DNA of 64,000 bases, taken from contig JAPYXD010000701.1 of NCBI GenBank assembly GCA_030998225.1, positions 7,672,501 to 7,736,500 of the forward strand, read 5' to 3'. The notes below the pieces were generated by a model that saw only the letters and a list, made by a program, of their open reading frames with translations, was not told where the DNA came from and ran no database searches. This DNA comes from Diplolepis rosae (lineage: Eukaryota > Arthropoda > Insecta > Hymenoptera > Diplolepididae). The number at the start of each line of letters is the position of its first letter. Within the stretch, counting starts at the first letter, position 1. The translations under genes were made by a program, and so were the position numbers. Positions 19,277 to 55,700 of this stretch are shown piece after piece.

Positions 19277-19322
19277 AAATTACTGATGAGGGTTCCGATC
19301 GAAGCCGAATCGTCTGATTAAA
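19277..19322 (+). ncRNA. hammerhead-like motif, family D
   Basis: CTGATGAG, stem II GGTTC/GAAGCC (one bulged G), then CGAATCGTC. The flanks ATTA and TGAT can pair as stem I and continue for one more pair. The A at the first stem III position has become T. The motif points opposite to the neighbouring Penelope remnant. Confidence 0.5.
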
Positions 19323-19686
19323 TTAGGCTAATCATTTTTGAAGCCTAAAACCAATTCTTCCAACAAACGTACCAGCATTATTAAAAATGGTATTATAAAC
19401 TGACAAAATAAAATAAACTTATCTCAGAATACTATTGAAAATTTAAAAACACTTGAATGAATTAGCATAATAAAATTTATATCTTTTTTGATTTTTTGAA
19501 AATTATTATTCGCCTTTTTGAATTGAACCGTTTTTAGTAGAAAGATATAAACGATCGACAGGAATAAATTTTCAAAACTTTTAAAAAGTTTTAGTAATTT
19601 AAGATTATTATGAAATTTTCATAATTTTACTTGTATTGGATTTGGATAATTTTTTTAAAATGCACTTATTAAAAACTCATATGAAC

Positions 19687-19730
19687 AAAATAAAGGCAAA
19701 CTTTCCGGCCACAAATCAGTACCAACTAAT
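19687..19730 (-). ncRNA. eroded hammerhead-like 3' core
   Basis: Minus strand: CTGATTTGTGGCCGGAAAG followed by TTTGCC. The 5' core and half of stem II are lost. The equivalent in copy 2 at 26049-26075 has an intact GGCCGAAACGTTTGCC. Confidence 0.35.
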
Positions 19731-19902
19731 AATAGTAAACCAAATAATAATAGTAATTCTTGTTTTTTTCAAATGGAAATACAAAAAATCATGCAAAATA
19801 AGTAACTTTAAAATTCGTTGATTTAACGTCCGACTAATTTTCTTCATTAAAAACAGGAAAATGACCATCTTCGGACAATCTGGATGTTTTTTTTTAATTT
19901 CT

Positions 19903-19947
19903 TTAATGACGTTTAGATAAACAATATGTCATCCTCTTCAGATTTTT
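19903..19947 (-). ncRNA. hammerhead-like motif in Penelope 3' region, family A
   Basis: Minus strand: CTGAAGAG, GATGA, loop, TTATC, then TAAACGTC. The stem II and GAAA positions carry substitutions compared with the intact copy at 25786-25828. It lies downstream of the GIY-YIG coding remnant on the same strand. Confidence 0.5.
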
Positions 19948-20125
19948 ACATTCCTTTAATGTTTAGATTCTATAATAATTATAAAAATTATAAAAAACAA
20001 AACCCTAAGAATAATAAACATAAAAATTATCCATAATATATAAATCAAAATACCTGTAGTTTTAGTGTCACATTTTTTACACACACATCACAAAAAAGTA
20101 TATATCGTCGATTGTTTTTCAAAAC

Positions 20126-20600
20126 TTAAGTCAGTATAAAAATAAATTTTATAAACATTTCTGCAATTTTTCTTTTGAAATAGTTTGATTCTTTGTGTAA
20201 GATTTTAATATTATCCCAATCAAAATTATGTTGAGTACCTGTATCATTGTTATTGTTTATTCTATGTTTAGTAACAACATTATGGTATTTTTCATTAAAA
20301 TTTTTTTTTTTTGTGTTCATCACATCTGACAAAAATCATTCTCCCAGTTTGACGTACATGGGTTTTTGAACAATCTAAGCAAGGAATCTTATAAACTACA
20401 TATGAATTTTCGAATTTTTCCAATGGGTCTTTTCCTAATTTTATGTATTTATCTAATTTTGAGGTGTTTCTGAAAACTATAGTTATGTTGTATTCTTTCA
20501 TCTGTCTTTTAATTTTACAAGATAATTTTCCATAATAAGGAATAGAAACTACACGTTTGTAATCTATTTCTCTTTGATTATTCTTTGGAATGAACCCGAG
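20126..20600 (-). pseudogene. GIY-YIG endonuclease domain of a Penelope-like element
   Basis: The reading frame from about 20600 shows the linker (SIPYYGKLS), then VVYKIPCLDC, HVRQTGR, VRCDEHK, and after a frameshift the typical C-terminus (FDWDNIKILHKESNYFKRKI). Penelope-like elements carry such a GIY-YIG domain after the reverse transcriptase; VVYKI is the GIY counterpart. The second motif, normally YIGQTGR, reads HVRQTGR, so the catalytic strand is altered. A frameshift lies in an A-run near 20305-20332, joining the frames 20501-20295 and 20332-20126. It is a dead fragment whose RT part lies at 23348-23870. Confidence 0.85.
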
Positions 20601-20739
20601 TCGAAATCCTAAGACTCGTCTCAGTCTCTACTGTCGAGATTGAGGCGAATGTGTGACGACGGTTACGAGAATGTGAAAAGAGAGTCTATAAATGTTCAGC
20701 ATTCATTGTCAACTCTCTTCTAGTCATCGAAAACTGCAC

Positions 20740-22184: not shown

Positions 22185-23092
22185 GCTTCTTTTTAATAAA
22201 TTAACCAACACGTATATCGGGATTTAAAAAAAAAAATTTTTTGAGAGATTTATTAATTTAAACTTTTCATAAAATTGGATAAAAAGCTAAATTCTCTTAT
22301 ACTTATAATTCATTATTTCCGGTTGAAATAATCAAATCGATTTTGGGTTTGTTTCATTTTCTAGTTTATTAAGTTAGGTTTTCAGATAAATAATTTTATA
22401 ATTTATATTTTGTTAATTAACTACAGATATAGGCAATTTGATTGTTCAAACAATTTTATCATGTTTGCCCCCTCAGTAGAAAAATTTGGAAAAAATACAG
22501 CCATATGCGCTATGTCTCAATATAACTAGCGCATATTTAATAAAAGTAGAAACTCAATTAGATCGGAAGATATTAAAGATTTTTGAGCGCGCGACGTGTT
22601 TAATCCTGTCTGAATCGACCAATAGCACATTATGTCTCGAGGAAGGCTAGTTGCGGCTCGACTCGGACATGATTAAACACGTCGCGCGCTCAAAAATATT
22701 TAATATCGTCCGATCTAATTGAGTCTCCACTTTTATTAAATATGTGCTAGTTATATTGAGAAATAGCGCATACGATACTATTTTTTCCAAATTTTTCTAA
22801 TGAGGGGGCAAACATGAAAAAATTGTTCAAACAATTAAATTGCCTATATCTGTAGTTAATTAACAAAATAAAATTTATAAAATTATTTATCTGAAAACCT
22901 AACGTAACAAGCTAGAAAATGAAACAAACCCAAAATCGATTTGATTATTTCAACCGGAAATAATGAATTATAAGTATAAGAGAATTTAGCATTTTATCCA
23001 ATTTTATCAAAAGTTTTAATTAATATATCTCTCAAAAAATTTTTTTTTCTTAAATCCCGTTATACGTGTTGGTTAATTTATTAAAAGGAAGC
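22185..23092. mobile_element. 908-bp foldback element with TA flanks
   Basis: Two arms of about 420 bp (22185-22612 and 22660-23092) are inverted copies, bounded by TA (22183-22184, 23093-23094) with ends GCTTCTTTTTAATAAATT. The hairpin tip is unusually G+C rich, with GAGCGCGCGACGTGTTTAAT and its complement around a spacer of about 50 bp. No coding capacity. Confidence 0.8.
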
Positions 23093-23094
23093 TA

Positions 23095-23330
23095 CAAAAA
23101 TATAAGAATGTCCCATATACATATTACTCATTGCAACTATATACATCTGCCCCAAATAATTAATTATACCTTCTTGAATTCTAAATTTTCTGATCTTGGA
23201 ATTGTAATTTTCAATATCACTTCGCTCTCGTTTCACCATCGCATCATATTCGTTCGTCTCTGCGTTCAACTTGTAAACTATTCACCTTCAGTTTTTCGAG
23301 AATTTGAGACATAATATTCGCTCCACGCTC
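23095..23330 (-). pseudogene. possible coiled-coil protein fragment, unknown
   Basis: On the minus strand an ATG at about 23311 opens MSQILEKLKVNSLQVERR. After an apparent frameshift, NAETNEYDAMVKRERSD follows, a charged, helix-prone stretch unlike random translation of AT-rich DNA. No family recognised. It could be a captured exon or a processed pseudogene fragment. Confidence 0.25.
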
Positions 23331-23347
23331 ACCAAACACTCGATTTT

Positions 23348-23870
23348 TTAAATAGAAAGTGTAGCGAGGGCAAAGAGAAGGCAAGATCTTCGACTCGGGA
23401 AATCTGAAGTTTTGTCTTGATATTTTAGTTGAAAAATTCTATTATTGATATGTTTGTTTATAAAATTTTTAGGATAATTATTAAGCATTAAAAGATTTTT
23501 GAATGTTTCTAAATTTTCTTCATGAAATTTTTCATGTGGCAGTAGTATTGCAGTGTCTACAAAATTTTTATTAATCGCAATTTTTTGTTGAAAAGGATAA
23601 TTAGAGAAATAGTTTAAATATCTACCGGAATTCGTGTTTTCTCTATACCAATTTGTTTCAATGATACCATTTTCATTTTTTATTATCAAAAGATTTAGAA
23701 ACGGAAGTGTGTTATCAAATTCTAATTCATATAAATATAAATTTTAATCATGAATGATAAGAATTAAAGTTTTCTGTAGTTTCTTTAATCATGTTCTTTG
23801 AAATTATTAAAAATGTGTCATCAACATATTTGTAATAAGAGTGTATTTTGAAACTTAATTTTTTTTAAAC
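23348..23870 (-). pseudogene. reverse transcriptase C-terminal part of a Penelope-like element
   Basis: Minus-strand YKYVDDTFLIIS (codons for YVDD at 23817-23828) is the RT catalytic box. Following it in another frame are LPFLNLLIIKNENG, YRENTNSGRYLNYFSN and the FVDTAILL region typical of the Penelope RT thumb. The frame shift lies near 23740-23765. Upstream RT motifs are absent, and the part is cut at about 23348-23395. Confidence 0.85.
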
Positions 23871-24094
23871 TACACATTTGATATAAGAATGTACAATTTT
23901 TAAAAAATTACAGAATTGAAAATGATAAAAACTTTTAATCTGTCATTGCAATTTGCAAATATTATTTTTGACTGTAATTTGTCACAAATTGGAAATTAAT
24001 ATTGACCACTCTTTTTTCTCAACATTTATACGAATTTCCAGTTATGATGCGACTATTTGAAAAGTTTTTAAATTTTATTTTTATATTGACTTAA

Positions 24095-25649
24095 GGTAGT
24101 TGATCCACGAAAATTAGATCTCAGGCAAAAATAGATAATGTTGCTTTCAAGAATAGCAATATTATTATTGAAGGGCTATTTTGGAAGAGAAAAGATTAAT
24201 TTCCATGAAAAAAATTTGAAATACATAAAAAAAAAAATTTTTATGGTTTTTCTTTGCCCCAACTTTTTTTCTTATCGCTTCTTACCAAATTTTAAAAAAT
24301 TATGCGATTTTAAAAAATTACAAATCACTTTTTCAAGAAAAAGATTCTCTACAACGTAACCATTTCCAATTTTCGAAAATGAATAAATTATTATCAAATT
24401 CAGCAATTTTTTTATAAAAATTTCGTTTTGGAAAATGTTTTTTTAATTGTTTTAGCCACTAAAGAATTTATTTTAAAAAATCAGAAAAGGTGAAGTTGTG
24501 GGAAATCTTTTCTCTGAAAAAATGATTCATGATTTATTAGAATCGCATAATTTTTTAAATTTGGTAAGAAGCAGTAAGAAAAAAAGTTGGATCAAAAATA
24601 AAATTTATTAATAAAATTATTTTTCTGTGTTTCAAATTTTTTTCATGTAAAATAATCTTTTCTCTTTCAAAATAGCCCTTCAATAATAATATTACTATTC
24701 TTGAAAGCAAAATTATCTATTTTTGCCTGAGCACTGCAAAAAGAAGTGTCTTAATATAAGATACTTGTGTAGTTATTTCTAAGATGTTTCGGTAGTCACA
24801 TTCAAGTTGCCTAAAGCATATTAATTGGAGACACGTAAAATATCTTGAGTTGAACCATCGGTAACACAGGTTACTTAAGTTACCGACAGTTCATGTTCCT
24901 TATAACCTCTACACTGTGAGAAAAAGCTTACGGCACACCGGTATCTGTTACACATGTGGTGGTTTACATGGCTGTATGTACTTCTTAAAAAAATTAATTC
25001 AAGAAAATGCTCTATTGGGAAAGGAGATAAGCGACTTAGCAAACGTATCCACTACGTTAAATCAGAAGGTATACCTGATATCGAGTTACGTGTTGCTGAT
25101 ACGATTCCCAATTTTTATATGTAGCTCCACATCCATCATATCTAAAGTTTAAATAAAGGATCGTGTCGATGAAAATGAACAATATATTCCTCTAAATGTG
25201 TTTATATTACACCACAGAAGAAAAACATGCAACACTCAAAACGCTCCATTTTTTGAGGTTATGAACTGTAACTATAACCCTTTGAGAGATTCTATCTTTC
25301 GACCACTACTTCTTTGACACTTTACGCGTCTTAGTTTTTGCTAACTTATTGACCTGCTATATCTTACAATTCAGAAACATCTTATGCCAGAACCATCTTA
25401 TGACACCCTAAACATCTTAATCTAAGATACATTATCTAACTCAACCAAGTATCTTATTTTGTAAGACGGAAATTACATCTTCATTCGTACCAAGATACGT
25501 AAGTCGTTTTAATTTTGAATAAGACACTTCGTGAGACATCTTATTTTAAGACAGAAGATAGCAAATTCCCATCTCATATCTTACAGTAAGATACCAGGTA
25601 AGACACTTCTTTTTGCAGTGAGGTCTAATTTTCGTGGATGAAAACTACC
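24095..25649. mobile_element. piggyBac-like MITE with TTAA duplication (with nested element)
   Basis: TTAA lies at 24091-24094 and 25650-25653. The ends GGTAGTTGATCCACGAAAAT and its counterpart are inverted, and the whole 664-bp core is an imperfect palindrome. TTAA duplication is diagnostic for piggyBac-type integration. No transposase. It contains the 889-bp CACTGCAAAAAG element (24732-25620). Confidence 0.85.
24732..25620. mobile_element. CACTGCAAAAAGAAGTGTCTTA-ended element, AG duplication
   Basis: The inverted ends CACTGCAAAAAGAAGTGTCT and complement are perfect over at least 20 bp, bounded by AG (24730-24731, 25621-25622). Removing the element plus one AG restores the palindrome of the host MITE. 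The interior has repeated AAGATAC/GTATCTT motifs. A 79-codon frame at 24916-25152 includes CYTCGGLHGC; with no identified family I do not call it a gene. Confidence 0.85.
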
Positions 25650-25785
25650 TTAAGTTTTGAAAAACAATCGACGATATATACTTTTTTGTGCTGTGTGTGT
25701 AAAAAATGTGACTCTAAAACTGTAGAGGTATTTTGATTCATACATATATAATTATTATAGAATCTAGACATTAAAAGAATGTAAA

Positions 25786-25828
25786 AATCTGAAGAGGATG
25801 ACATATTGTTCATCGAAACGTCATTAAA
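25786..25828 (+). ncRNA. hammerhead-like motif, family A, intact
   Basis: CTGAAGAG, stem II GATGA/TCATC around loop CATATTGT, then CGAAACGTC. Flanks AAT and ATT can pair as stem I. Stem III would be the loopless palindrome ACGT, with predicted cleavage after the C of GTC. All core positions (CUGANGA, GAAA) are present apart from one extra G before stem II. Confidence 0.65.
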
Positions 25829-26048
25829 GAAATTAAAAAAAACATCCAGATTGTCCGAGGTTGGTCATTTTCCTGTTTTTAATGAAGAAAATTAGTCGAA
25901 CGTTAAATCAACGAATTTTAAACTTACTTATTTTGCATGTTTTTATTTATTTCCATTTGAAAAAAAAAACAAGAATGACTATTATTAACTTAACTTTTTT
26001 ACACATTTTCCCGGCTTAATTATTAATGATATTAAATTATTTGGTACT

Positions 26049-26075
26049 AATTTGTGGCCGAAACGTTTGCCTTTA
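26049..26075 (+). ncRNA. partial hammerhead-like 3' core
   Basis: TGTGGCCGAAACGTTTGCC retains the 3' strand of stem II, the GAAAC core and the stem I strand; the CUGANGA side is lost. A similar partial copy is at 27636-27662 (TGGTTGAAACGTTTGTC). Confidence 0.4.
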
Positions 26076-26111
26076 TTTTGTTCATATGAGTTTTTAATAA
26101 ATACATTTTAA

Positions 26112-27202
26112 GGTAGTTTTCAGCCACGAAAAATTAGACCTCAGGCAAAAATAGATAATATTGCTTTCAAGAAAGCAATATTATTATTGAAGGGCTATTT
26201 TGAATGAGAGAAGATTATTTTTCAGGAAAAAAATTTGAAACACAGAAAAATAATTTTATTAATAAATTTTATTTTTGCCCCAACTTTTTTTCTTATCGTT
26301 TCTTACCAAATTATAAAAAATTATGCGATTCTAATAAATCATGAATCATTTTTTCAGAGAAAAGATTTCCCACAAATTCACCGTTTCTGATTTTTAAAAA
26401 TAAATTCTTTAATGGCTAAAACCATTAAAAAAACATTTTCCAAAACGAAATTATTATAAAGAAATTGCTGAATTTGATAATAATTTATTCATTTTCGAAA
26501 ATTTGAAATGTTTAAGTTGTAGGGAATCTTTTTCATGAAAAAGTGATTTGTAATTTATTAAAATTGCATGATTTTTTAAAATTTGGTAAGAAGCGATAAG
26601 AAAAAAAGTTGGGGAAAAAAATTTTGATTGGATGTGGCTGGTTAACGAACTTGTCCTTACTTTTTCGGCTCCGATAAAGTGTACCAAAGCTCAATTCAAT
26701 CTGATAATTCTATCGAGAGTTATGCCGCACACGACCTACTACAGACAGACAGACAGACAGACAGACACTTTCGTAAAAACCATTTTTTCTGACTCAGGGG
26801 GTCTCAAAACGTAAAGATTTGATGAAAATTTCGAAAGTCATTTTTCACATAAAACCAATACCTTCTCTTCCATGATGAGAATGTAAAAAATTGCTGAATT
26901 TGATAATAATTTATTCATTTTCGAAAATTTGAAATGGTTAAGTTGTAGGGAATCTTTTTCTTGAAAAAGTGATTTGTAATTTATTAAAATTGCATGATTT
27001 TTTAAAATTTGGTAAGAAGCGATAAGAAAAAAAGTTGGGGCAAAGAAAAATCATAAAAATTTTTTTTTTTATGTATTTCAAATTTTTTTCATGGAAATTA
27101 ATCTTTTCTCTTCCAAAATAGCCCTTCAATAATAATATTGCTATTCTTGAAAGCAACATTATCTATTTTTGCCTGAGATCTAATTTTCGTGGATCAACTA
27201 CC
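26112..27202. mobile_element. piggyBac-like MITE copy 2, TTAA duplication
   Basis: TTAA lies at 26108-26111 and 27203-27206, with the same inverted ends as 24095-25649. It is longer (1091 bp) because the middle holds a LINE-type fragment (26628-26870), and the right half is partly duplicated. Confidence 0.8.
26628..26870 (+). mobile_element. non-LTR retroelement 3' fragment
   Basis: GGCTGGTTAACGAACTTGTC, a (GACA)n run at 26741-26766, and CTGACTCAGGGGGTCTCAAA are typical of the 3' ends of a common arthropod LINE group. No coding sequence remains. Confidence 0.6.
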
Positions 27203-27510
27203 TTAAAAAAACTACCCAATTCCAATACAAGTAAAATTCTGAAAATATCGTAATAATCTCAAATTACTAAAACTTTTTAAAAGTTTTGAAAATTTATTCC
27301 TGTCGATCGTTTATATCTTTCTACTAGAAACGGTTCAATTCCAAAAAGGCAAATACTAATTTTCAACAAATCAAAAAAGATATAAATTTTATTATACTAA
27401 TTCATTCAAGTCTTTTTAAATTTTCAATAGTATTCTGAGATCAGTTTATTTTATTTTGAGCGTTTATAATACAATTTTTAATAATGCTGGTACGTTTGTT
27501 GGAAGTTAGG

Positions 27511-28486
27511 TTTTAGGCTTCAAAAATGTTTAGATTGTCCAAGGTTGGTCATTTTCCTGTTTTTAATGAAGTAACTTTACTCTTTTGGACTTTTTGCAGC
27601 TTATAATTATTAATGATAATAATTTAATTGAAACTGATTTGTGGTTGAAACGTTTGTCTTTATTTTGTTAATTCGAGTTGGATCAAGAAAAATACTAGAG
27701 ACATGAATACAAGCATGTCACGAAACTATTAATACGGAAGTTTCACTTTTCAAGACTCACAACCCTACTGATAGTATATAAAATAATAATTCACATATCT
27801 AATGTTATGATCCTTGCTTTTGAGAAACGAGTCTCAATTATGGTTATTACGTAAGAGATGAACGTATTGGTCTGTTCTCGTTGATCATAATAGCGATCGA
27901 TTCGGCCATTAGCAATACGATGAGCCAATGCGGAGCAGAGCACGGATAAGATTTTAGCGATTTCCCGATCAACGTCGAACCTGGATATATACGAAACGAT
28001 CCATGCTGATGTTAGCGGCCGTGGGCACCGCACATTTCAATTACGTGGCGGTGTCGGCCTGTGATGTAGACCTGCCGCACTCATTATGTGGAATATAAGC
28101 TCGTGCTAGGTGTTCTCTCGGGTGCTGCTACCTCTTATGTTGATCGTTCCACACTGATCTGAAAGAGCCACCTGTGTACCGGTTACACGAGTTCCAGGTC
28201 GATCTCGACCACGGGGTGAAAGGGGAGAAGGTCAGAGGACCATATTAAGTTCAAACGCCGCCGATTGAAAGATCCAGCCTGATTGACGTTCATCTCAAAT
28301 TTTTGCTCATAATGGAACCTATAAACGTTTCAGGCTAAGTTAGATTGGACTCTCGTGGCGCCACTTTGTAGCAGACACGATTCGCTTAAAATTGTGGGAA
28401 TAATAGTCTCAGTCGATTTCATAAATTTTATCCTTTTATACTTCATTTTTCAAGAATTGAAGAATTATTGATTTCTAGTGCTTTGG
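27511..28486. other. repeat tail, then GC-richer unique sequence
   Basis: 27525-27660 repeats parts of the Penelope 3' region (CATTTTCCTGTTTTTAATGA). From 27780 to 28400 G+C rises clearly, and a minus-strand frame (27791-28033) stays open for 80 codons without known domain. This may be conserved regulatory sequence or an unrecognised exon. Confidence 0.4.
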
Positions 28487-28591: not shown

Positions 28592-29334
28592 CAGGACATA
28601 TTTAATGAGGAAGATTTTAAGTTTCTTCCTCTGTCTTTTTACAAGAAATTTTTCTGTACAAGTTTTTTTACATTTTTTACATTTTTCTTACATTTTACAT
28701 TTTTAACATTTGGTTTATACCACTTATAGTTTCACTTGTACAATTTCATTCATATCGGTTAACCAAAATTGTTATCTGTCACACGTGTTACTTTTAAGTC
28801 TCTCTTGTTAGTATTTCTTTCAAATTAAGGCTTTACGCCTTCACTTTTTTAGCAAATTTAGTTATTTAGACCAATATTTTCATCGGTCACAGTTTCAAAT
28901 TGTTCAAGTTTCTTCATTTGTATTCTTATAGAAATATTTTTTTTCTGTACAGTTCATTACAATTCAGTTTAGACCAATTTTATAGGTTCACATGCATAAT
29001 TCATTTATATCATTGTATTACAATGTCTCTTTAAAGTTCTTTTTAGCAATATTACGAAAAAATTTTTTGTACAGTTTTGTTACAGTTTTACTGTATTGCA
29101 AATTTAGTTACTTAGTCCAATTTTATTTTCACACCTGCGATTCTTATATCACTTTTTTACTACAATGTTTATCCGTCACACGGTCAATTCTTAAGATTCC
29201 TCCTTTGTATTTTTTATAGAAATAAATTCTCACTGATGAGGACTCCAACCTGAGTCGAAACGTTTGAAAGAATGTAAGAACTGAGTTTTCATCATTTCTG
29301 GACCCTAAAGCCAATTTACACATATGTCGAAACT
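28592..29334 (+). mobile_element. family B element: tandem subunits plus hammerhead-like motif
   Basis: Roughly 170-bp subunits repeat three to four times (each with a TTTCTTCNTTTGTATT-type box, TTTAGACCAATTTTA, and a TCGGTCACAC-like box). They are followed by the ribozyme-like motif and the family end TTTCTGGACCCTAAAGCCAA. There is no ORF with any RT or endonuclease motif, so it is non-autonomous. Relatives are at 53511-54105 and 54098-54984. Confidence 0.65.
29229..29272 (+). ncRNA. hammerhead-like motif, family B, intact
   Basis: CTGATGAG, stem II GACTC/GAGTC (loop CAACCT), CGAAACGTTTG. Stem I TCA/TGA pairs at the junction, then one mismatch and further A-U pairs. The predicted cleavage triplet is GUU. 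Confidence 0.65.
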
Positions 29335-32247: not shown

Positions 32248-33377
32248 CACTGTAAACAATTTTTCGGAAATTTTTCCGAAAATAGTCGGACAGCTTAAGG
32301 TAGTACGATCACAAAAATTAGACCTCAGGCAAAAATAGATACTTTTGCTATCAATAATAGCAATATTATTAATGAAGGGCTAATTTGAAAGAGAAAAGAT
32401 TATTTTTTATGGAAACAATTTGAAACACAAAAAAATAATGTTATTAATAAATTTTATTTTTGCCCAAACTTATTTTCTTATCGCTTCTTGCCAAATTATA
32501 AAAAATTATGCGATTCTAATAAATCATGAATCATTTTTTCAGAGAAAAGATTTCCCACAATTTCACCGTTTCTGATTTTTAAAAATAAATTCTTCAATGG
32601 CTGAAACCATTAAAAAAACATTTTCCAAAACGAAATTTTTATAAAGAAATTGCTGAATTTGATAATAATTTATTCATTTTCGAAAATTTGAAATGTTTAA
32701 GTTGTAGGGAATCTTTTTCATGAAAAAGTAATTTGTAATTTATTAAAATTGCATGATTTTTTAAAATTTGGTAAGAAGCGATAAGAAAAAAAGTTGGGGA
32801 AAAAAAAACATTAATAAAATTATTTTTCTGATGCATTTCAAATTTTTTTCATGAAAAATAATCTTTTCTCTTTCAAATTAGTCCTTCAATAATAATATTG
32901 CTATTCTTGAAAGCAAAATTATCTATTTTTGCCTGAGGTCTAATTATCGTGATTGTACTACCTTAAAATACAAATGGGTCGTAAATTTTTCCAAAAATAT
33001 ATTTGGAAATATTTCCGACACAGAAGTGGAAATAGTTCCTACTGTTTGGTCGGAGAAATATCCAGTTTATTAGGAAATATATATTTATTTCATAATTTAA
33101 GTGGAAAAAGATCCAAAAAAAGTGAACAAATTTCCGTTTTTGTGAAATAATTTTCGCTTTTCATGGGAAAAATTTCCTACAACTTAGGAGATTTGTGAAA
33201 TGTTTTCACCTTTTTGATATATTTTCTAATAGTTTGGACATAAGTCCGAAAATTCGGTCAATTTTCTTCAAATCTATGAAATATTTCCACTTTCTGTAGG
33301 AAAATACATGCTTCCTAGGAATTTAGGAAAAATTTCCTAATACATAGTAGGAAAATTTACCGATATTTTCTACAGCG
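32248..33377. mobile_element. CACTGTAAACAATTTTTCGG-ended element, TA duplication, nested host
   Basis: The imperfect inverted ends CACTGTAAACAATTTTTCGG and CCGATATTTTCTACAGCG are bounded by TA (32246-32247, 33378-33379). The interior is rich in self-complementary GGAAATATTTCC motifs. A TTAA-flanked MITE (32299-32962) is inserted near its left end. Confidence 0.6.
32299..32962. mobile_element. piggyBac-like MITE copy 3, 664 bp, TTAA duplication
   Basis: TTAA at 32295-32298 and 32963-32966. Inverted ends GGTAGTACGATCAC and GTGATTGTACTACC. The same length (664 bp) as copy 1 without its nested element, which supports the nesting model. Confidence 0.85.
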
Positions 33378-38570: not shown

Positions 38571-38573
38571 CTA

Positions 38574-38857: not shown

Positions 38858-39144
38858 ATAACAGAATGAATAAAAATTCTGTGAATTTTGGGTCGATATA
38901 ATAGCAGACATGTTTTCAAACATGTCACATTACATAGATAAAATATTTCCAATTTCTTTTAACCTTTTACATTATTCTAAAATCTTTCAAAGTATTCTGA
39001 AAATTCTCTCTTCAATTTTTTTCCCATTTAGTATTTTTTTACATACTTGGAAAGTCTTGGAAAAGTTTTGAAATCTTTCAAATTCAATTTAAACCTTTTG
39101 AAATCGTTTAAATTTTAGCTACAGTGATGTTTTAATTCTTTATA

Positions 39145-39425: not shown

Positions 39426-42180
39426 AGATTGCAATTTTATAATCTAATAATTTTACATTTTTTTACTTTTTTGTGCTTTAAACTTTCTTAGAATTTTTGA
39501 CAAATTAGATAATAATTGGAATTATGATTTTAAAATTTTCAAAATTGTATACCAACTTTAAAATTACCAAGTTTTAAAATTTACAAAACTTTATACACTT
39601 ATTTCTAGATTCTTATTTCTTAATTTGAGATTTGATATCTCTTAAAGTTTTGAAAAAATAAAGCTTGTTTAAATTTATGAGATTCCGAAACGGGACAAAT
39701 CAAGTTTTTTGTCGCTAAGGTAATTCGAGTAGCTGAACGAAAGCATAAGCTGCTATAATCCTCCGTGAAATCCTCACTAAGTTAAACCGGACCGAGAACG
39801 TCATCGTATCAGACCAGAACATTGATTTTTCACGGTATAACAAACCGGTTAATCGTTCAAACTCTTTAAGTACTTTCATATTTTCGAGTCAATTTATCCA
39901 AATTTATCAACTTGGAATTCTGGATATTAATTATATTCAGTTGTTTAAAATAGTGGAATTGATTGTATTGATTTCATTGTGCAGCTGGTTTCAAGTTTTC
40001 TTATTGCTTGCAGGTTCTTCCGGTCTTATGAACTAAGGAATTGTTTTCTAGGAAGAAAACTGTTCAGAGTAATTAACAAATAAAATCATCCGGTCAACTT
40101 CTCAACATGCGAATAGTCAACTGGTGTAGCTCAAGTGAATCAGAGTGACAGTTTAATGGGCGACTGATGGCAATGTCTTGTCGCGTCGCGGCTCGACGAA
40201 GCCACCTGCAGGCAATGAGTATTCCGTATGTTGACGAGAAGGTTCTGCCACTCGCCTGATTAACATCCGTACTCGCACGTTGAAAATCGCTTAATTCATT
40301 TCAGTTCAAATATACTAAACCTGATAGAATATTCTCTGATTCTTAGATTAAATCTGAAGCAGAAAAACAAATTCAAGTTAGATTCAGACTTCCTCAGCTA
40401 ATATGTTATTTAACAACTAATCATTTCAAGGCCTTTTAAATCTAAACATTTTTGGAATATAAAAATTTTCTATATCCATAGGTTTTTGAATTTGAATGTT
40501 TGCTTTGAATTCATGAATTTGTCTTTTATCTCGAATTTTAATTAAAACCATTTTATATTCCGAAAATCTTTAAAATTTTAATTTTGTTAAATTTATAGTT
40601 TTTCCTAAATTAGAAAACTTATTACCCAACTGAATTTTTTTGAAAATATTGTTAATTTGAAGAACCTTAAAATTTTTAAAAACCACTATAAATTTCTTTT
40701 AACTTCTTACATTATTCTAAACTTCCTTGAAATTTTTGAAAAGTTCTCTCTTTAAATTTTTTACGTTTCTCAATGTTTTATTACATTTTTGGAATGTTTT
40801 GAAAACATTTAAAAAAATTTTAATTTCTATGTGTTCTGATTTTCTTTGATTCCAGCTTCTATAAGATAAATTTCGTGTATCTCACTTTTCTTGAACTTCA
40901 AACTTTCTTAAAATTTTAAAACGATTAAACAATAAATGAAACTAAAATTTAAAAAGTAAACATGAACTTTCGAATCAGTCAATTTTAAGTTTTATGAAAC
41001 TTATAGATTTAGCAAATAGAATAGTATATTATAGATAAAATATTTTTTAATATGTAAAGATGAAAAATGTATGAATCCAGAAAATTTGAGGCCTTTTAAA
41101 TTTTTTGAAATTAGTATATTACTAAGACTTTATTTCTTTCAATTCAAGATGTATGCCATCCTTTAAAATTAAAACATATTTCTATTGAAAACAATCTAAT
41201 TTCAAAATAATTAAAAATGCTCAGAGAATTATAAATTGATATCGCTGATCAAAAAAAATGTTCCAGAAAATATTTAGAAGTCAGAAAACTTTTATATCTA
41301 TCTAAGAGTTATTCAAAATTTGCACACACCGTTCGAAAGCTTAAAAATTGAAAAAAATACAGAATACATTATCCTAAACATGTCATAGTATAATTAGTTA
41401 CTAATATACCTTCTATTATCCGAAAGACCCAATTTAAAATATTTAAACGTAAAACAGAATCTCCAAATTGGGATAAAATCAAATTACTATATCCTTTTTG
41501 CAGAGAAACATAGTTTGAAGATGCTGAAGTGTTCCTAAGATTTCAAATTCTTAAAAGAGAGATTGGGTTAGAGAAGTAATACCAAAGACTCAAAGAGGAT
41601 GATACACCCTAGGATGACTCTTGCGGAAGTCGCTTCTGGGAAAACGCTTGGACACTGGGCGCGTGTCTTCCGAGAGGATGAAAGCAGAAAAGGAGAAGAC
41701 GCTGAAAGAAAGAGGAGACGAAAAGAGAAGGAAAGAAGGATGCCGCGGGTAACGAGCCTCCGGTCACGTGTATATGGTGTCGGGCGTCGAGATGTCAGAT
41801 CTACGGGCGCGTGCTCAATGGCACGTGTCTTCGCTTGCTGATCAGTTAAGTCTCATAAGACACTCGTTCGTCATCGACTCTATCGTCACAGGACGTGATT
41901 CTGAAAACTCTGGATGGTAAAATGAAAAGCTCTGCTTTCTTCCTATTCCTATTGTCAATTTCCAACCAGGTTTTCACGGTACCAAAGAACTTCAAAATTG
42001 GAATCAAACTTGAGAATCTGACGAGTTTTTCAGTTTTCTTTCTTAGTGAGAAATACAACTTATTGGGAATTCTTCTAATTCTTTACGGAATAAATGTTCT
42101 ATCAGGATTTCAAAATCAAGAATAAGGTTTGAAGAAAAGACTCAAGAGGCTTTGTTGAGAAAAATTTCTTTGTAACGTGA
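39426..42180. other. AT-rich sequence with GC-richer islands
   Basis: Islands at about 39700-39860, 40130-40290 and 41580-41900. The frame at 41599-41841 is basic and low-complexity (RKRRRKEKERR) without domain. No repeat with defined ends was found. Confidence 0.35.
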
Positions 42181-42185
42181 CATGT

Positions 42186-42610
42186 TTTTGGCATTGGGTC
42201 AGCCTCTTTTTATTTTCTTCTATTAAAAGTATCAATGCTACTTACGATAAAAAACGCAAAAAAAGAGAAGGCAAACGTTTCGGCCACACATAGGGCCCCT
42301 CTTCAGTGCCATGAATTTAAAGATTAATTCAAAATTGTCGTAAAAGATAAAAATGTAGAAGATAGTTAAAATAAGGATAATAATGAAACTCAAAAACTTA
42401 TCTCATCGCTTGCAATTCAAAATGAAGAAGTCCAGTAAGCGACAACACGAATTGGAAACAATATGTAGAATTCGTTGTATATAGAAAACCGGATGGGCCC
42501 CCATATGTGGCTGAAACGTTTGCCTTCTCTTTTTTTCCGTTTTTTATCATAAGTAGCATTGGCAATTTTAATATAAGAAAATAAAAAGAGGCTGACCCAA
42601 TGCCAAAAAA
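42186..42610. mobile_element. family C element, double form
   Basis: Bounded by TTTTGGCATTGGGTCAG and its inverse. It contains a minus-strand ribozyme-like motif (42268-42312) and a truncated plus-strand one (42491-42528, GGCCCCCATATGTGG then CTGAAACG), i.e. two family C halves head to head. Confidence 0.65.
42268..42312 (-). ncRNA. hammerhead-like motif, family C, intact
   Basis: Minus strand: CTGAAGAGG, stem II GGCC/GGCC with loop CTATGTGT, CGAAACGTTTGCC. Stem I GGCA/TGCC is perfect. The loop and the N of CUGANGA differ from 38738, while paired positions are kept. Confidence 0.7.
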
Positions 42611-45600
42611 TGAGAAATTAACAAAAATTTCTTTCCCATAAAGTATATAAGGAAAAAGGAAATAGTTGATACTCCCCCATTATGTGTATTTAAAGTCGAA
42701 GAGAAGGATACGTGGGTTTTCAATTGTGCTTGGCCCACTTCTTTTAATACTTCACTTGTAAATTGAGGTATTCAAATCAGACCTGATTGCGCAAGGGTCA
42801 TAATATAGCACCGACTCGGCGAAGGAACATTGTACTTTTCCTCCGATTGCCATAAAATGCAGGTGGTGTCGTGATGGCAACAATACATTCAACACTTTGA
42901 ACTCTGTTGGTTCGTATAAGGATGCACACAGGATGCAGGACGTGTCATTAGCATAGCACTCTTCGTAGCTGTGGTTTATGATTTATTCGCTCTCTTCCGA
43001 AACTCCGTTTTCTTCACTCGTGATGCGTAATGGCACCTTCGTGACGTACAATCAGGATCGTACACAGCACTGATTCCTTTTTGGTATCGACTCTTCAGGG
43101 ACTTTAAACTAGGTTAGTAGAACTCCATCTGTTAGTAGTCTCTTCAATTTTCATGGGAAAAAAGTGGTTAAAGGTATTTTGATATTATCTTCAGAAATAC
43201 TAATACTGTTGAACATAATCGAAATTAGAATTCATACTTGAAAATTGAAACTTATACATTTTTAACACTTTGGAATTTCAAGCTTCAAATATTCATTATA
43301 TTTTTGAACCTCATTATTTACAAGAGTTTAGAAATTGAGGTTTCATAATTATAAATCTCTAGTGTTCCAAGATTAAAATCGTCTAATTTAGTAACTACAG
43401 CCCTGAATAAAAACAATTCTCGTAACGTGTAGATCATTTTATGGTGCCTCGCATTCCCATCAGAGATACCCTGGGATATATTCAATTGTCTGGAAACGCC
43501 TACTCTCCATCGACTAATGATTTCTTGGTCTCTCTTGTGATTTTCTCTTTCCTTCTCTAATTCTGGCTCGTTTGCAGCCTGATCTCGAAATCACAATACT
43601 ATCAGTGTCTGATCGCGATCTCCAGCAGTGCGATTGAAACACCGCTTCCTCGTTTATGGAAATATAAGAAGCGGCTGTCAGTCCACGCAAACGAGCTGTA
43701 ACCAGATCTGACACTGAAATGAAATAGACGTGGTGCGATCGAGTCGTGTTGGAAAGACGAAGAGGTTTTAACTTTTTGCTACCGTGGTTAGATACCTTGT
43801 TTAAACGAGGGGAATGAATTCATTTCCGAGCCACTTTTATGGAGTCATGCCAGGTTTTCATTTCCATTCTGAGATGCTAAAAGGATGCTTACTTCAATCG
43901 ATATTTAACTCTGATAGGAAAGATACCTGAAAGAGTTTAAAGTTCTGCATTCAAAAATAATGAGTGTTTTATACTCTTTAGTTGGGACTAACTTTTCACG
44001 AAAAGATACATTTTAATCAGGCATATTTTTTTACTTCATTTGAGGCTTTTATGAAAAGCATGTTCTATTTTTCAAAATATTATAATTTCCAACACTTTCT
44101 TTCTTTGAAATCTTCAAGTTTTATGAATTACGTTTTAATTACATATTCTTTTATAAAAAGAAGTTGAAATAATTAAATTTTGGAAATTCTTTAATTTTCT
44201 GATAAAAGCGTTTGGGGTACGGAAGTTAAAATTAATTTAAAACATAAAATAGCAGATCGTATGAAATTAATTTAAAACATTTTTAATTAATATTTATTGA
44301 CTACAAATATTTGCAAAAATAAAACATACACGGAGAACAAAATCGGGAATGGATGCCGAAAAATGAAATAAAAATTATCAAACTCGATGGAAGACGGAGT
44401 ATAAACTCGGAATATGCTTTATATTACCAAAGAACATGGTAAAAATAGCGTTAGGTAAAAGTTATTATTTTTTCGCAAAAAAATCACCAAAGCACATCAA
44501 CTTTTAATGCAAGAGTTAAATGTTTTACCATCGTGGCTAGAGAAAAAATTATGAGAAAAAATGTAAATAAAAAATATAAATTACTTCATCATGCGAATCA
44601 CGTGATGCTGTATACCGTGTTCTATAGATGTTGGATTTGTCATTTAGCTATGTTAAGTAAAAGTTAAATAATTAAAAGTAGTATAAGTTGTATTGACCCT
44701 TAATTTTAATAAAATGGTACGTAGTTGGACAAAAATTGGCTAATTTTTGGAAAAATCTCTTGAAACTTTTAGAAATTTTTTTGATCTTCTAAAACCACTC
44801 AAGCTCTTTCGAAATATTTCGCAAACTTGTACAATCTTTCAAAATTATCAAAAATCTTTTTAATAGTATGTTACCAGACTTGAAACTTATGAAAGCAGAT
44901 AATTTGTTCAGTAAAAATTTAGATAATGATTCAGCTTGCTAATATTATATTATAGTACACAATATTTTTAAATTCAAAAGTATTCATAAATTATTAAGTT
45001 GGTGGATTTCCCAACTTTTAAAAAAACTTGATTCTCTATCCGTTTACCTAAAATAAACTATCCAAGAATACACACAATCGATCAGAAAAACTTAAGGAAT
45101 TTAGAAACTGAAATTCTGTGATTACTCAGAATTAAAATCCTATCTCTGCACTACCTGAAACTAAAATTGGCATCCCGATTTGACACAAAAATCAGTCGAA
45201 ATTAATTAAAGACAGGATAACAAAACAGAAACGAAATTGGTGATGAAGCAAACTAGATTTGGAATTCCGGATAAAATTTCTCTGGCGCATTGTGAACAGT
45301 GACCAAAGTAATTCCAGCAGTCGGAGGAAGCCGTACTGGTTCCTGGAGCTTTAACGATCCTTACGATCGGATATCTCTTCTTTATTTTCGATAGTCTCGA
45401 ACGCAAGACCTTTAAGACCCTGGAAAAATTTGGAGCGTGCATACCTCGAAGCCAGGAGTCCCACGGGAGTCAAGAAGAGGAAAAAGATAAAGGGGTGGCT
45501 AAGAGGGAGGAAGGCCACTAAATATTGTGTTCTCGCTGAGAATACAGGGCCGCGGACACGTGTAAGCGGGCCGCGGGATTCCGTATGAGCAGATCGGCCC

Positions 45601-46140: not shown

Positions 46141-46143
46141 CAT

Positions 46144-46357
46144 TTTTTGGCATAGGGTCAGTTTTATCCTTATTTTAATTATCTCCTGCATTTTTACCTT
46201 TTACAAAAATTTTGAATTAATCTTTTAATTGATGGCACTGAAGAGGGCCCCCATATGTGGCCGAAACGTTTGGCTTCCTTTTTTGCGTTTTTTTATATAT
46301 AACATTGATAATTTTTAATCGAAGAAAATAAAAAGAAACTGACCCTATGCCAAAAAA
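46144..46357 (+). mobile_element. family C element with hammerhead-like motif
   Basis: Inverted ends TTGGCATAGGGTCAG and CTGACCCTATGCCAA; both ends carry the same A-for-T type change relative to other copies, so they changed together. The motif is at 46232-46276. Confidence 0.65.
46232..46276 (+). ncRNA. hammerhead-like motif, family C
   Basis: CTGAAGAG, stem II GGCC/GGCC, CGAAACGTTTGGC. Core intact; stem I has one mismatch (GGCA against TGGC). Confidence 0.6.
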
Positions 46358-47122: not shown

Positions 47123-47129
47123 AGGCGCG

Positions 47130-48610: not shown

Positions 48611-48614
48611 TTAT

Positions 48615-48868
48615 TAAGGCCATGGTTCAATTGGACCACGTGACTAAATTAAACATAAATTCGTTCATGTAAGATAACTTTTTTGATTTACAAAATATCT
48701 TTCTGAAAATTTGGGAATCAAAAGACAATAAAGTACGTCTGTTAACTTCTTTTTGGTACAAATTTCACTCAAACGAAGTCAACAGACGTTCTTTATCGTC
48801 TTCTGTTGTATTTTCCAAATTTAGAGGAAGATATTTTGTTAAATAAAAAAATCCATGGACTTAAGGCG
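48615..48868. mobile_element. palindromic MITE-like element
   Basis: Arms 48687-48749 and 48777-48845 are imperfect inverse copies (ACAAAATATCTTTCTG, and its counterpart). The outer ends carry TTAAGGCCATGG and CCATGGACTTAAGG, and GGACCACGTGACTA relates it to 1762-2114. Confidence 0.6.
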
Positions 48869-49743: not shown

Positions 49744-52700
49744 GTAAACACACTTGCAATTGAAAATAAAAGTCATGAAAATTGTAATTTTTTATCACTT
49801 TCAGCATATTAATTTATAAAAATATTTGTCTCTAGTAATTTAAATGAACGAAAACGATTAGTTTTTAAAAATTGGTTAAAGAAATATTTGTTTAATAATC
49901 TAAATTTTTAAATTTCATACATTTCAATTACTTAAGAAAAAGTTTGTCGGACAGTCGGGAAAAAGTTAGTCAAACTGACTATTAATTAATAATTAAAGAT
50001 ATGTGTTGATGTCACTGATGAGGGTTCCGATCAGAGCCAAAACGTTTGATTATGTAAAATTTTGAGCTTTTATTAACCTTGGACCCTAAAGCCAACTATC
50101 AATATCAACACATATCTTCAATCAAAAATTATATATTTTTTATTGGTGGAATCATTTTTTCGAAAAAAGCTGAATACAAGTTAAATTTGTGTATCGATCA
50201 CGACTATAATAAATCTATAATTTTTATTCGATTTCAACTTTTCATGGATCATTTTAATCAAGATACCATTTACTACACTTCCACTAAAAACCTCGATAAA
50301 GTGATATCCTAAATGGAAAAAAATTGAGAAAATAGTCACTTTGACTAACTTTTTTCCAATTACCTGCCCAAGTCTTGCTTAATTTTGTCTGGTTTCGTAA
50401 AACATCATAAATAAAATGCTCAATGCAACCAGTTAAATGTTTTAGTTAAAACTGAAATCTTTTGTTTTCCATCCTTGAGATATACTATTAAATTGTTTTA
50501 ATAATATTTTTTCTTTTTTCGGTTGGCTGTTCTCACCTGATACAGAATGGGGTAAGTTTTATTCTAATAATTTTGGAAAAATCATTTTTATGCCTAAGAA
50601 TCTGACCGAGAGATAAATTTTGTTCTGCAATTTTTTCCCCCGAGGAAAAAAGTTCCAGGGTAAATGAAGAGAACTAAACTTAATGAAATCATTCTAAAAC
50701 TATTCCCGTTGGGAAAAGTACTTGAGATGCCAATAGAAGTAACAATTAATCGTTTGGACATCGCGCTCCAGTTTCCCTGTTAGGAGATTTACTTTGTAAC
50801 AAGAAAGCAAGTGGTTTGAAAATAGGAAGAGATCGTCTCGTCTGCGGATAAAGGAAGGAAAGAAAGTAAAGGAAGAGAGCGAAGAGAAGACCGCAGATAG
50901 GATCGGATGTGTGTGGTCCACCGCTTTACTCTTTATAAGACTTATATAAGCCAGCTCGAGAAGCGGGCCTTGCTCGCTCGTTAGCGGCTCGCGACAAACA
51001 CCGTAAGGTCGCTCACCGCCATACGTAGTCCAGCGTAGGAAAAAGATGGTAGGGTGGTCTCAGTACATACGTACCTACCTGCAACGACAGAAATTCCAGG
51101 ATGCATAAAATCAACTTCCAACGTAATTAAACCTTTTTCTAACCCAAGAAAAACCACTTTCAGTAACAATGTTGCTCTCCACTATCTCATCAGTTTCCAT
51201 CCGCATTTCAAATCTTTCGATTGAAAGAATTGAATTCTAAAATATTTGAAATTTGATCCCAAAGGTACTAAATTCAAAAGCTCTTGTAAAAAATCATATG
51301 AAAGCTTGATGATCTAAAAATCAAAGGTGATGAATTAATTTTGTCTTTGCTCCAAATGAATGTGTATTTTTTTAAATTGCTTAATATTAGAGGAGATGAA
51401 TTTAGCATAATTGTATTTGAGAATTGGAGGAAGAACTCAGGTCGGGTCCTTGTCATTCTCGACATCTGTCTGTCGTTTTATCTTCTTAACTGCCTTTTGG
51501 TCGAAGCCGGCTCATTTGTTTTCACGGTGTAACCGGAGCCATCCTGTCGACACCGCGCCACCTTCATCCCTTTCTCTGGATGAGACTGATATCCACCGTT
51601 CGACTCTCATGTAAATCGGCTAATTCCACGTGGTGCATTAATTATCTCGTTACGTACGCTGCCTCGATGTCGCGAAGGACATAAGCTGGAAGAAAAAGGA
51701 GTTCGCATTCCTTGTATCCAATTATCGGAACAGAGAAAAAGCGTGCCTGTAACGACAAAGATTCTACTTGCATTGCGGTTTACACGGGAAATCTCCCATA
51801 ATCAAATCCAACAACCAAATCTTCATGATTGAGAGAGAAAGAACAAATGACTAAATTTCGTCAGAATAATAACTTGGCTTGAAATGTTATTTTTTTAATT
51901 TCTATTTTTTGAAATGATTTGTTTCGAATTTTTTAAAAGTTTTGTTTCTTCATTCAAGGAGGACCGAACACTACTAGAAATCGGAAAAAAACATAATTAC
52001 CATTTTAAAAAATACTAGTACTGTCATTCACTGTCCTATATTTTTAAATTAGAATTAGAGTTGCTAATTTGTTTCATTGGCATAATTTTTCGTCCAAAAT
52101 TATGCCCTTCTATAAAATAAAAATTATATTCCTTTTTCAGTTTTTATATTTAATATACAATTTTTATTGTTTCGATTCAGCAATTTTATAACACTTTACA
52201 TAAGATTTAAAAGATTTGTGTTTCAAATAATAAGAAGAAGATTTAATATTCACAACTTGGAAGAACTGGGAATTTGGTGGGAAAAAATTTAATGAACATT
52301 TAGAACACTACAAAATTTTTCTGAAGTAATCAATTATGTTTCTCTCGTGATTCTCCAGCCGCATTCGAACCTCTTGAAGTTTAGAGTTTGTCTGGAACGA
52401 ATTATGTTTGTATTTTTTATTTTTTCAGATGAGTTTGTAGAAAGAAGGAAAACCTGAAAGCAAGTGATCTAAGTCGACCTTGCACGTAGGATGAAATAAA
52501 TGGCGCTCTATGCGGACGGAATTTCTGCTGCGTTAGCTGGTATTTATTTTTCGTGGGTTTAAAGTCCAGAGAATAAAGCGTTACGTATATATATACATAA
52601 AGAGAAAGAAGAAAGGAGAGCAGGTCTCGTGGATCGTCCTGAGCGTAATCTGTCAGCAAGTATACACTGCTTTTACCGCAGTTTTCTCCATCTTATCGTC

Positions 52701-55700
52701 GGATCGACTCGCATTTAATCCTCACAAAAAACAGTGGCTGCTCCAAGAGAGACCTTAAGCCGCCCGTGTGGCGCCTGCATCCACGGTCCAATCGTAGGAC
52801 AGCCACGACAATGAAATCCAACCATGCAGAGCTTCTCGGATGTCCACCGGGTGACTTATTTAGAAAAATGTGCTCATACCTTCATCAGTATGAAAAAAAT
52901 CCAAATTAAAATCAAGATAGATATAAGGTTTTTCTTTCATGTTTACAAGCTTTGCATTTCAAAGACACACTAATCATACTCTTGAAATTTCTGTGATTTG
53001 AATTGAAGATCTTCTAAAATTCTAATTGTTTTCATTAAATTTATTCCAGATCTCGTGATTTTTTATTTGGAAACTTCAAGAGTTGAGAACTAGAAAGTTT
53101 GGAAGTCATTTCTTGCAAATATGATTTCATTCAAATTCAAAAGTTTTATTTAGAATTTACAATATATTGATATTTCAAAGAATAAATTTTTTAATGTTCA
53201 TAAAGGTGAACCGAATCAAGACCATTTAAATTTACAAAACCTTACTTTAAAATTTTTAATGTATCAAAATTGCTTTTAATTTTATTAATTTTATTAAAAT
53301 CTTCTAAATTAAAAGTTTTCCAATCTTTCAAGCCTTTCATATTCCAAGCGTGATCATTTTTGTTTAAAAAATTATTTCTCAGAGTCATTTGCATTTCGAA
53401 GAATGCACAATAGGTATGTAAATTTGTATTTGATACATAAAATTACAATTTTTATCAAGAAAAATTATTTTGAAAAATCATAAATAGCTGATTTATATCA
53501 ACCCTAAACAATATTAATAGTGGTTGGTTTTTAATTTGGCTTCAGGGTCCAGAAATAATCTAACTCAGAGTTTTTTTTTCCCTCAAACATTTCGACTCTG
53601 ATCAGAATCCTCATCAGTGATTTTTATTTCTAAAATATCAAAAAAATTGCTATAATATTACACTTATAAGCCCTATTTTGGTGTAAACTTTGGTAATTTA
53701 CAAAGACTAAAAAATGAAACACATTTGCATGATCTTTGAAAACCCTAAGCTAAAACTAAATATATTTGTGTATAAACGTTACAGAAAATATAGATGCAAG
53801 TAGTTAAACTATCACAAATCCTTAACACGATTATTTTTGAGAAATTAAATGAAAATTGTTTTTTGTTTATAACGATTGTATCCTAGCAAAAGGTGCTTTT
53901 TGATAGTTATATATTTATCAAATATCAGACGAAGGTAGCTGGAATATGGCAGACATAAACCTATTTATTTACCTATAAACCTATTTATTTATTTACTGTG
54001 AAAACTCCGATCAGAGTCGAAACGTTTAAGGAAACAAAAATGATACTCTGAGTTACATTATTTCTGGACCCTAAATCCAAATTAAAAATCAACCACTATT
54101 AATATTCAAATATTGTTGATGTTCTTGGTTGGCTTTAGGGTCCAGAAAAAATGTAACTCAAAGTTTCATATTTTCAAACGTTTCGACTCAGATTGGAGTC
54201 CTCATCAGTGAGAATTTATTTCTATAAAAAATACAAAGGAAGAAACTTAAAAAATTTGCACGTGTGACCGATGAACATTGTTGTAAGTAAATGATATAAC
54301 AGAATTGCGAGTGTGAAACTATAAAATTGGTCTAAATATCTAAAATTTGCAAAAAAATGAAACTGTAACAAACCAAATATTTCTGTAGAAATACTGGGGG
54401 GAGAACATTAAGGAATTGCCCGTGTGACGGATCAACATTGTGGTAAAAACGATGTAAATGAATGAAAAAAATAGTGAAAACTGTACAAAAAATGTTTCTA
54501 TAAAAATACAAAGGGAAAAAATTTAAAAGTTTGCACGTGTGACCGATGAACATTGTGGTAAAAATGATATAAAAGAATTGCGTTGGAAAATATAAAATTG
54601 GTTGAAATTAAATTAAATTTGCAAAAAAATGAAAACTGTACAAAAAAAATTTTTTTGTAAAAATACTAAGATAATGTTCTCCCCCCAGTATTTCTACAGA
54701 AATATTTGGTTTGTTACAGTTTCATTTTTTTGCAAATTTTAGATATTTAGACCAATTTTATAGTTTCACACTCGCAATTCTGTTATATCATTTACTTACA
54801 ACAATGTTCATCGGTCACACGTGCAAATTTTTTAAGTTTCTTCCTTTGTATTTTTTATAGAAATAAATTCTCACTGATGAGGACTTCAATCTGAGTCGAA
54901 ACGTTTGAAAATATGAAACTTTGAGTTACATTTTTTCTGGACCCTAAAGCCAACCAAGAACATCAACAATATTTGAATATTAACACTAAGGGTCGATATA
55001 AGTCCTGTTTCATTATTTATTTTCACTATTAATATTTCTAAAAACCCAAAAATTAATTCATTCAGAGATTGGTTTCAATCCTTCAATACTAGACACTCTC
55101 ATATCTCATAACCAACCCTTATCTCTTTGAAACCAACCGAAATTGGAAACTCACGAAGCAGTCCTTAACGAAAAGCGAAACGAATCAAGGCTCTAAAATT
55201 CAAAAATAAATATCTTTGAACGACATCAGGCAATATCGAGAAACTCTGATTCTTTTCATGCATCCCATGTTGAGATTTCCAGGCTCTCTTGGATGTCACA
55301 AAGGGTAACTCCCGCGATATGATTTAGTTGCTCGTAAAGGCGGGCCGATGTAAGAAAAATATTAAAATTGAAAATTCTCAACGGTGATATACGCGTGTGA
55401 TATTGGTGGCCAGCAGCTGTCCGGAGCTAGAGGCACGAAAAAGAGGTGTTCGGGGATGAAACCCGAGGGCGGCAATAAGATAAAAATATGTTGGGGGTGG
55501 AGAACCTCAAGAGAAAAGGGCACGTAATATTATCTCGACTCTTAGTGTGACTCGGCTGCCAGGACAACGCTACTTTAAAATATTGTCAAAAGTATATAAA
55601 GAGATCTATGTACAAGGGGGGGTTGAAAGAGAGAAGAAAATAAAATATACGATTTCTCTATTTATTTCTTTCTCTTTTTTTTCTATTTTAAGAGGGGTGT

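Follow-up and report, generated by a model that had tools for sequence, protein, structure and literature searches.

The primary paper on the minimal hammerhead variants of Penelope-like elements (PLEs) reportedly states cleavage by dimers in its title. Hammerheads of PLEs are usually minimal, lacking helix III and tertiary contacts (PMC6155905), and double hammerheads with a joined stem III have been reported for Penelope-like retrotransposons (PMC6466107); papers given here by PMC number are represented by excerpts. The Penelope of Adineta vaga has inverted terminal repeats (pLTRs), a tail and target duplications (PMC3846280). In the lizard PLE termed PAc, copying starts at two adjacent internal sites, both target strands are cut and extended, and the tail is the sequence between the sites; no difference between the strands in start site was reported (PMC11167929). 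In these excerpts the mode of PLE insertion, the cause of the inverted ends and the purpose of the ribozyme are left open. The subject here is a set of hammerhead-like motifs in a 64,000-nt stretch of the gall wasp Diplolepis rosae (contig JAPYXD010000701.1, positions 7,672,501 to 7,736,500), called the window below.

These motifs are best explained as minimal hammerheads near the 3' ends of three or more PLE families and of short derivatives without reading frames, all inserted by PLE machinery, a reading to which a probability of about 0.93 is given. It is carried by a covarying two-stem fold, abundance throughout the genome, linkage to PLE frames and an insertion anatomy of PLE type. Membership in Penelope-like insertions explains the number of motifs, their families and their orientations. 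The original prediction, made from the letters of the window, had described the motifs as hammerhead-like but overlooked both this membership and the absence of stem III.

The covarying minimal fold

In an alignment of 20 copies, standard pairs occupy 89% of the cells of stems I and II, compared with 56% in shuffles, and double-sided changes are found in 55 cells compared with 16. In 500 shuffles the observed values for pairing, double-change cells and covariation are never reached, and the count of pair types is reached 3 times. When the partner strand is slid by 1-3 columns, pairing falls to 22-48%. Exact copies give the same picture: 74 of 95 stem II pairs are formed in 19 distinct strand pairs (54 in shuffles), as are 63 of 69 stem I pairs (three pairs, 23 distinct combinations; 36 in shuffles), and neither value is reached in 10,000 shuffles. 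Kinship among sequences inflates such tests; the changes here, though, distinguish families whose stems are entirely unlike. Of the 23 distinct combinations, 17 have T and 6 have C directly before the expected cut, and none has A or G. CUGANGA is separated from stem II by a single unpaired G. The canonical register of stem II, with the G of CUGANGAG paired, was rejected: it forms 56 of 95 pairs, and leaving the G unpaired raises this to 74. There is strong support for a hammerhead-type fold under selection.

Most of what the original prediction said of the fold has held. It had proposed covariation as the sign of such a fold, flanks pairing as stem I, and a check by covariation statistics on aligned copies; both stems do covary across families, stem I varies with the family, and the statistics gave the scores above. 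Its stem II strands are correct for GAUGA/UCAUC, GACUC/GAGUC and GGCC/GGCC, whereas GGUUC/GAAGCC at 19277 requires a bulge. Four repeat families was a fair count, though three or four is safer, since the GGUUC type at 50009 and the GACUC family have downstream sequence in common. The hammerhead core it named is present, with CUGANGA and GAAA between the stems, but in the minimal Penelope-type form rather than the classical one.

Only C-G-U-H separates GAAA from stem I, so there is no room for a stem III hairpin. Of the classical features, the motifs have the core of CUGANGA and GAAA (with the extra unpaired G before stem II) and lack the stem III hairpin. They also show features of the minimal PLE type: stem III is absent, a self-complementary ACGU follows GAA, and the motifs are associated with PLEs. 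Because ACGU is self-complementary, two copies could share a stem III of four pairs. A search with existing hammerhead models, which the original prediction had suggested, failed to find the motifs; Rfam gave 13 window matches up to E 5, no hammerhead among them, and likewise no hammerhead at the gathering score. Current Rfam hammerhead models thus miss all copies in the window.

The kind of motif is already published, and the families here are new. With the published minimal PLE hammerheads (Cervera and De la Pena 2014; Lunse, Weinberg and Breaker 2017; known through titles and citing papers) they have in common the core, stems I and II, the lack of a stem III hairpin, the place in the PLE terminal repeat and a possible joint stem III in a dimer. 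The families described here have an unpaired G before stem II; the likeness covers the features just named. The dimer-acting hammerheads of newt and avocado sunblotch have a weak stem III, and their double form cleaves better; their stem III is short and looped, whereas the motifs here have none (PMC6155905). Intact copies would cleave after GUU or GUC. A single copy could not form stem III, and two copies would share it through the palindrome ACGU, whether both lie on a single tandem transcript or on two separate RNAs. Catalysis, action as a dimer and a part in mobility, if any, are inferred.

Motifs in the window and linkage to PLE frames

The covariance model was trained on 20 copies (8 from the window, 12 from elsewhere in the genome) and searched with filters off. 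It recovers all 12 motifs of the original prediction with E values of 1.5e-17 to 5.2e-10, so that the claim of at least twelve motifs at the named sites is borne out. Those at 25777, 29221, 38732, 42263, 46226, 50003, 54166 and 54862 were in the training set and match by construction; the matches at 15106(-), 19271(+), 19897(-) and 53575(-) are independent (E 4.6e-13 to 5.2e-10). A 13th motif, 53984-54037(+), was absent from the earlier list (E 8.4e-5). In total there are 21 window matches up to E 1, eight of them weak. To judge from where they lie in related repeats, those at 42495(+), 26035(+), 27622(+) and 19688(-) seem to be truncated or degenerate motifs, and those at 6644(+), 6645(-), 6721(+) and 57662(-) are taken as chance. 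The strict pattern CTGANGAG-N{6,30}-CGAAACG has 7 copies in the window and none in 100 shuffles; further copies turn up once mismatches are allowed in the core pattern. The motifs, with the evidence for each, are as follows.

15106-15160 (-): hammerhead motif, family B, AAAA instead of GAAA in the core, probably inactive; covariance model, core letters
19271-19325 (+): hammerhead-like motif, GGUUC type, GAAU instead of GAAA in the core, probably inactive; covariance model
19688-19731 (-): family A element, second motif, degenerate; weak match (E 0.3), related repeats
19897-19953 (-): hammerhead motif, family A, TAAA instead of GAAA in the core, downstream of PLE frame; covariance model, tblastn
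25777-25833 (+): hammerhead motif, family A, core intact; strict pattern, covariance model
26035-26078 (+): family A element, second motif, degenerate; weak match (E 0.045), related repeats
27622-27665 (+): family A fragment, degenerate motif; weak match (E 0.11), related repeats
29221-29275 (+): hammerhead motif, family B, core intact; strict pattern, covariance model
38732-38787 (+): hammerhead motif, family C, core intact; strict pattern, covariance model
42263-42318 (-): hammerhead motif, family C, core intact; strict pattern, covariance model
42495-42520 (+): outward-pointing partner motif, cut at the stem II base; E 0.019, related repeats
46226-46281 (+): hammerhead motif, family C, core intact; strict pattern, covariance model
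50003-50057 (+): hammerhead motif, GGUUC/GAGCC type followed by family B sequence, AAAA instead of GAAA in the core; covariance model
53575-53629 (-): hammerhead motif, family B, change after GAAA (CGU to UGU); covariance model
53984-54037 (+): decayed outward-pointing partner of the motif at 53575; E 8.4e-5, inverted arms 53510-53606 and 54006-54106
54166-54220 (-): hammerhead motif, family B, core intact; strict pattern, covariance model
54862-54916 (+): hammerhead motif, family B, core intact; strict pattern, covariance model

The window copies are probably isolated or decayed remnants. A short inverted repeat at about 50001-50117 surrounds the motif at 50003. Degenerate repeat units of about 115 nt are found at 28640-29220 and 54238-54860, upstream of family B hammerheads. 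The inverted-repeat elements at 24091-24731, 26106-27208 and 32295-32968 are mutually related, and one of them seems to enclose the family A copy at 25777.

Throughout the genome (757.7 Mb in 428 contigs), the pattern CTGANGAG-N{8,24}-CGAAACGT has 14,558 exact copies, compared with 13 for the pattern read backwards. Neighbouring motifs of one family tend to point outward. Among the first 100 listed of 1,143 places of family T, neighbours within 5 kb are 22 outward, 0 inward and 6 tandem. For the first 100 listed of the 14,558 places, whose families were read by eye off stem II, neighbours up to 12 kb away are 18 outward, 3 inward and 11 tandem when of the same family, and 3 outward, 4 inward and 4 tandem when of different families.

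A tblastn search of the window with 129 PLE proteins gave matches at two places only.

20087-20627 (-): C-terminal PLE part containing the endonuclease, broken frame; tblastn best E 8.3e-20
23255-23909 (-): PLE reverse transcriptase fragment, broken frame, YVDD motif readable; tblastn best E 1.3e-32

The core of a family A motif starts about 146 nt downstream of the endonuclease fragment. Pfam gave a sub-threshold bPH_3 match for one of the two fragments and nothing for the other, and a PDB search with the endonuclease fragment found no match. A 396-nt foldback with arms 92% complementary lies at 22223-23053, between the reverse transcriptase and endonuclease parts.

PLE frames also occur elsewhere in the genome. 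Twenty stretches were fetched around outward motif pairs; as they were chosen for holding pairs, they do not measure how frequent frames are. Matches to RVT_1 and/or GIY-YIG were obtained for frames situated between two motifs, of family B in L032, L034, L035 and L036 and of family C in L033 and L037. Ten frames were scanned (L032-L037, L040): six match RVT_1 above the cut-off and one (L037) matches GIY-YIG above it, with three further GIY-YIG matches below. In L040 (family T, outside the window), a frame of 861 aa is 55% identical over 98% to a Leptopilina heterotoma protein with RVT_1; other named relatives come from Trichogramma, ants and other insects. The pLTR-like repeats of L040 comprise a 3.1-kb direct repeat and a 1.9-kb inverted part. 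These marks of a PLE are found: a frame with reverse transcriptase and GIY-YIG endonuclease, direct and inverted pLTRs with partial tandems, and a tail at one end. The Penelope of A. vaga (PMC3846280) and PAc (PMC11167929) share the single frame with both activities and the direct and inverted pLTRs, and also the tail, the target duplications and a copying start downstream of the hammerhead.

Insertion ends and the mode of copying

Three insertions in the window could be outlined.

38554-38878 (+): core of a family C insertion, 64-nt inverted arms around one motif; 38554-38617 and 38815-38878 match inversely at 95%
42172-42622 (-): family C insertion with 115-nt inverted arms inside; 12-nt direct repeat at 42160-42171 and 42623-42634
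54107-55023 (no single strand): family B insertion, two outward motifs, tail on the right; 312-nt inverted arms 54099-54410 and 54672-54983

The last is bounded by a 13-nt direct repeat (54094-54106 and 55024-55036), gave no PLE match by tblastn with the 129 proteins, and sits at the end of another outward pair, at about 53510-54106. Frame-less arrays are found outside the window. For example, L042:798-4701 holds four same-strand family C motifs spaced 1,070-1,088 nt and no reading frame of 180 aa; at its ends are a 5' arm in inverted orientation, a tail that includes a small stem-loop, and a direct repeat of 15 nt. Arrays of units of about 1.07 kb, each with a family C motif and no long frame, also occur in L041 and L043. 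The insertion at 54107-55023 and L042 look like passengers of the PLE machinery. In the window, Tandem Repeats Finder detected no array holding a motif.

Ends were compared twice, for 30 outward pairs and then for 39 (29 of the former and ten new T pairs). In the second comparison the direct repeat was not required to touch the shared end, and L048, whose two motifs share only 8 nt downstream, was left out. A direct repeat of at least 12 nt is found in the flanks of 21 of the 39 pairs; among 1,482 crossed pairs, 20 have one. For 20 of these 21 pairs, one repeat copy lies at most 10 nt from the point where the ends cease matching, with the other 24-56 nt past that point; L038 has distances of 12 and 42 nt. 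All 21 have unequal ends, and the longer side varies. By eye, a one-sided extension is seen in nine of the ten new T pairs; the two sides of L096/L097 stay identical well beyond the tail. Whereas the tail is called optional in the excerpts on the A. vaga Penelope (PMC3846280) and PAc (PMC11167929), unequal ends here mark every pair with such a repeat.

The data fit the lizard PLE model, and bounded insertions seem to use both sites, one per end. This pattern was not found stated in the literature searched, although many relevant papers lie outside that search. The PLE reverse transcriptase and endonuclease would insert the element, with copying starting some 70-175 nt downstream of the ribozyme. 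If copying starts at both cut target strands, head-to-head copies would be left. At the other end, several copies start within the core or adjacent to it, at about -5 to +19 relative to its start, and not at the expected cut: L040:2768, L058, L062, L078, L079, and 42495 and 50003 in the window. These 5' junctions do not favour the idea that the ribozyme cut is always where the copied RNA starts; they are few and were mostly found through the 3' half of the motif, so that ends at the cut could be missed.

Of the alternatives, chance matches in AT-rich DNA have nothing in their favour and are refuted by the shuffled windows, by the backward pattern genome-wide and by the loss of pairing on sliding the strands, and their probability is negligible. 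Metazoan retrozymes, short non-autonomous tandem repeats with classical type I hammerheads that spread via small circular RNAs, would make the PLEs chance neighbours. Like them, some copies here stand in frame-less hammerhead-bearing repeats, partly tandem, as in L042 (PMC7229834). Published retrozymes, in contrast, have canonical type I motifs with stem III in tandem repeats of about 150-450 bp (PMC7229834), a combination not found here. L042 has minimal motifs, 1.07-kb units and the PLE-type ends described above, and families B, C and T flank PLE frames. An origin as retrozymes is very unlikely.

A fold kept by descent or for another role, such as a protein-binding or packaging stem-loop, with no family any longer having a ribozyme, would agree with the inability of a single copy to form stem III. 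It would also agree with the in vitro insertion of PAc with a mutated ribozyme, which makes a role of cleavage in mobility doubtful (PMC11167929). Against it, the core letters and the T or C at the cleavage position are kept across families with completely different stems; since the retrieval pattern demanded exact core letters for many copies, the free evidence lies in families, stems and cleavage position only. This alternative is improbable, if less so than the retrozymes. The preferred reading, of minimal hammerheads carried by PLEs and their derivatives, has the PAc mutants against it as well, together with the following results. Eight of nine pairs show a double change (the ninth is invariant), but 58 of 500 shuffles also reach eight, so this measure alone is not decisive. 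Energy folding of single and paired copies does not favour the hammerhead fold and was not used as support. The core is exact in 7 of the 12 listed motifs and substituted in the other five, which are probably inactive: 15111(-) CAAAACG, 19903(-) CTAAACG, 50009(+) CAAAACG, 53579(-) CGAAATG and 19277(+) CGAATCG. Families B and C have no PLE frame in the window by tblastn and are linked to PLEs via copies elsewhere. The L040 frame has no RVT_1 match of its own, only a sub-threshold SRP54_N, and is assigned via relatives carrying PF00078. No direct repeat of at least 12 nt was found in 18 of the 39 outward pairs, and the family C insertion of the window has its 12-nt repeat at 42160/42623 yet equal extensions of 13 nt. 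The rule of unequal ends is also contradicted by L033 (long sequence at both ends, no repeat), L060 (ends identical up to the limit of the fetched stretch) and L058 (the repeat implies 46 nt, alignment to the T unit about 28).

A more tentative proposal, which we hold to be rather doubtful, goes beyond the preferred reading. A complete PLE insertion may consist of two coordinated reverse transcripts from two adjacent starts, one per cut strand, in which case the long and the short end would be obligate and not an optional tail. The full-length RNA would start at a hammerhead and carry two, joinable through ACGU, and the same machinery would move the frame-less derivatives, both foldbacks of a few hundred bp and 1.07-kb arrays. 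Movement of these derivatives by that machinery would tie retrozyme-like arrays to PLEs, and arrays of the L042 type possibly form the link. The unequal ends of all 21 pairs with a direct repeat make coordinated twin priming testable. More than 14,000 copies in several families provide enough bounded insertions to test it against self-priming, and the same copies allow one to ask whether the cleavage site or the start of the ribozyme marks the 5' end of the RNA.

Other features of the window

The window has six open reading frames of at least 120 aa in its 64 kb; on this count and the size of the genome, a bacterial origin was rejected. A long hairpin at 48722-48802(+) scores 37 bits for MIR9563, whose family cut-off is 90, and is probably a mere inverted repeat. 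Two adjacent frames at 10172-11275(-), one with a DUF4817 helix-turn-helix, are what we take to be a broken mariner/Tc1-like transposase. Four tRNA-like matches lie within repeats, at 9186-9250(+), 11704-11775(-), 12645-12716(-) and 13340-13411(+); two are called tRNA-Ala (GGC) by ARAGORN, and all are probably copies of a tRNA-derived short interspersed element (SINE).

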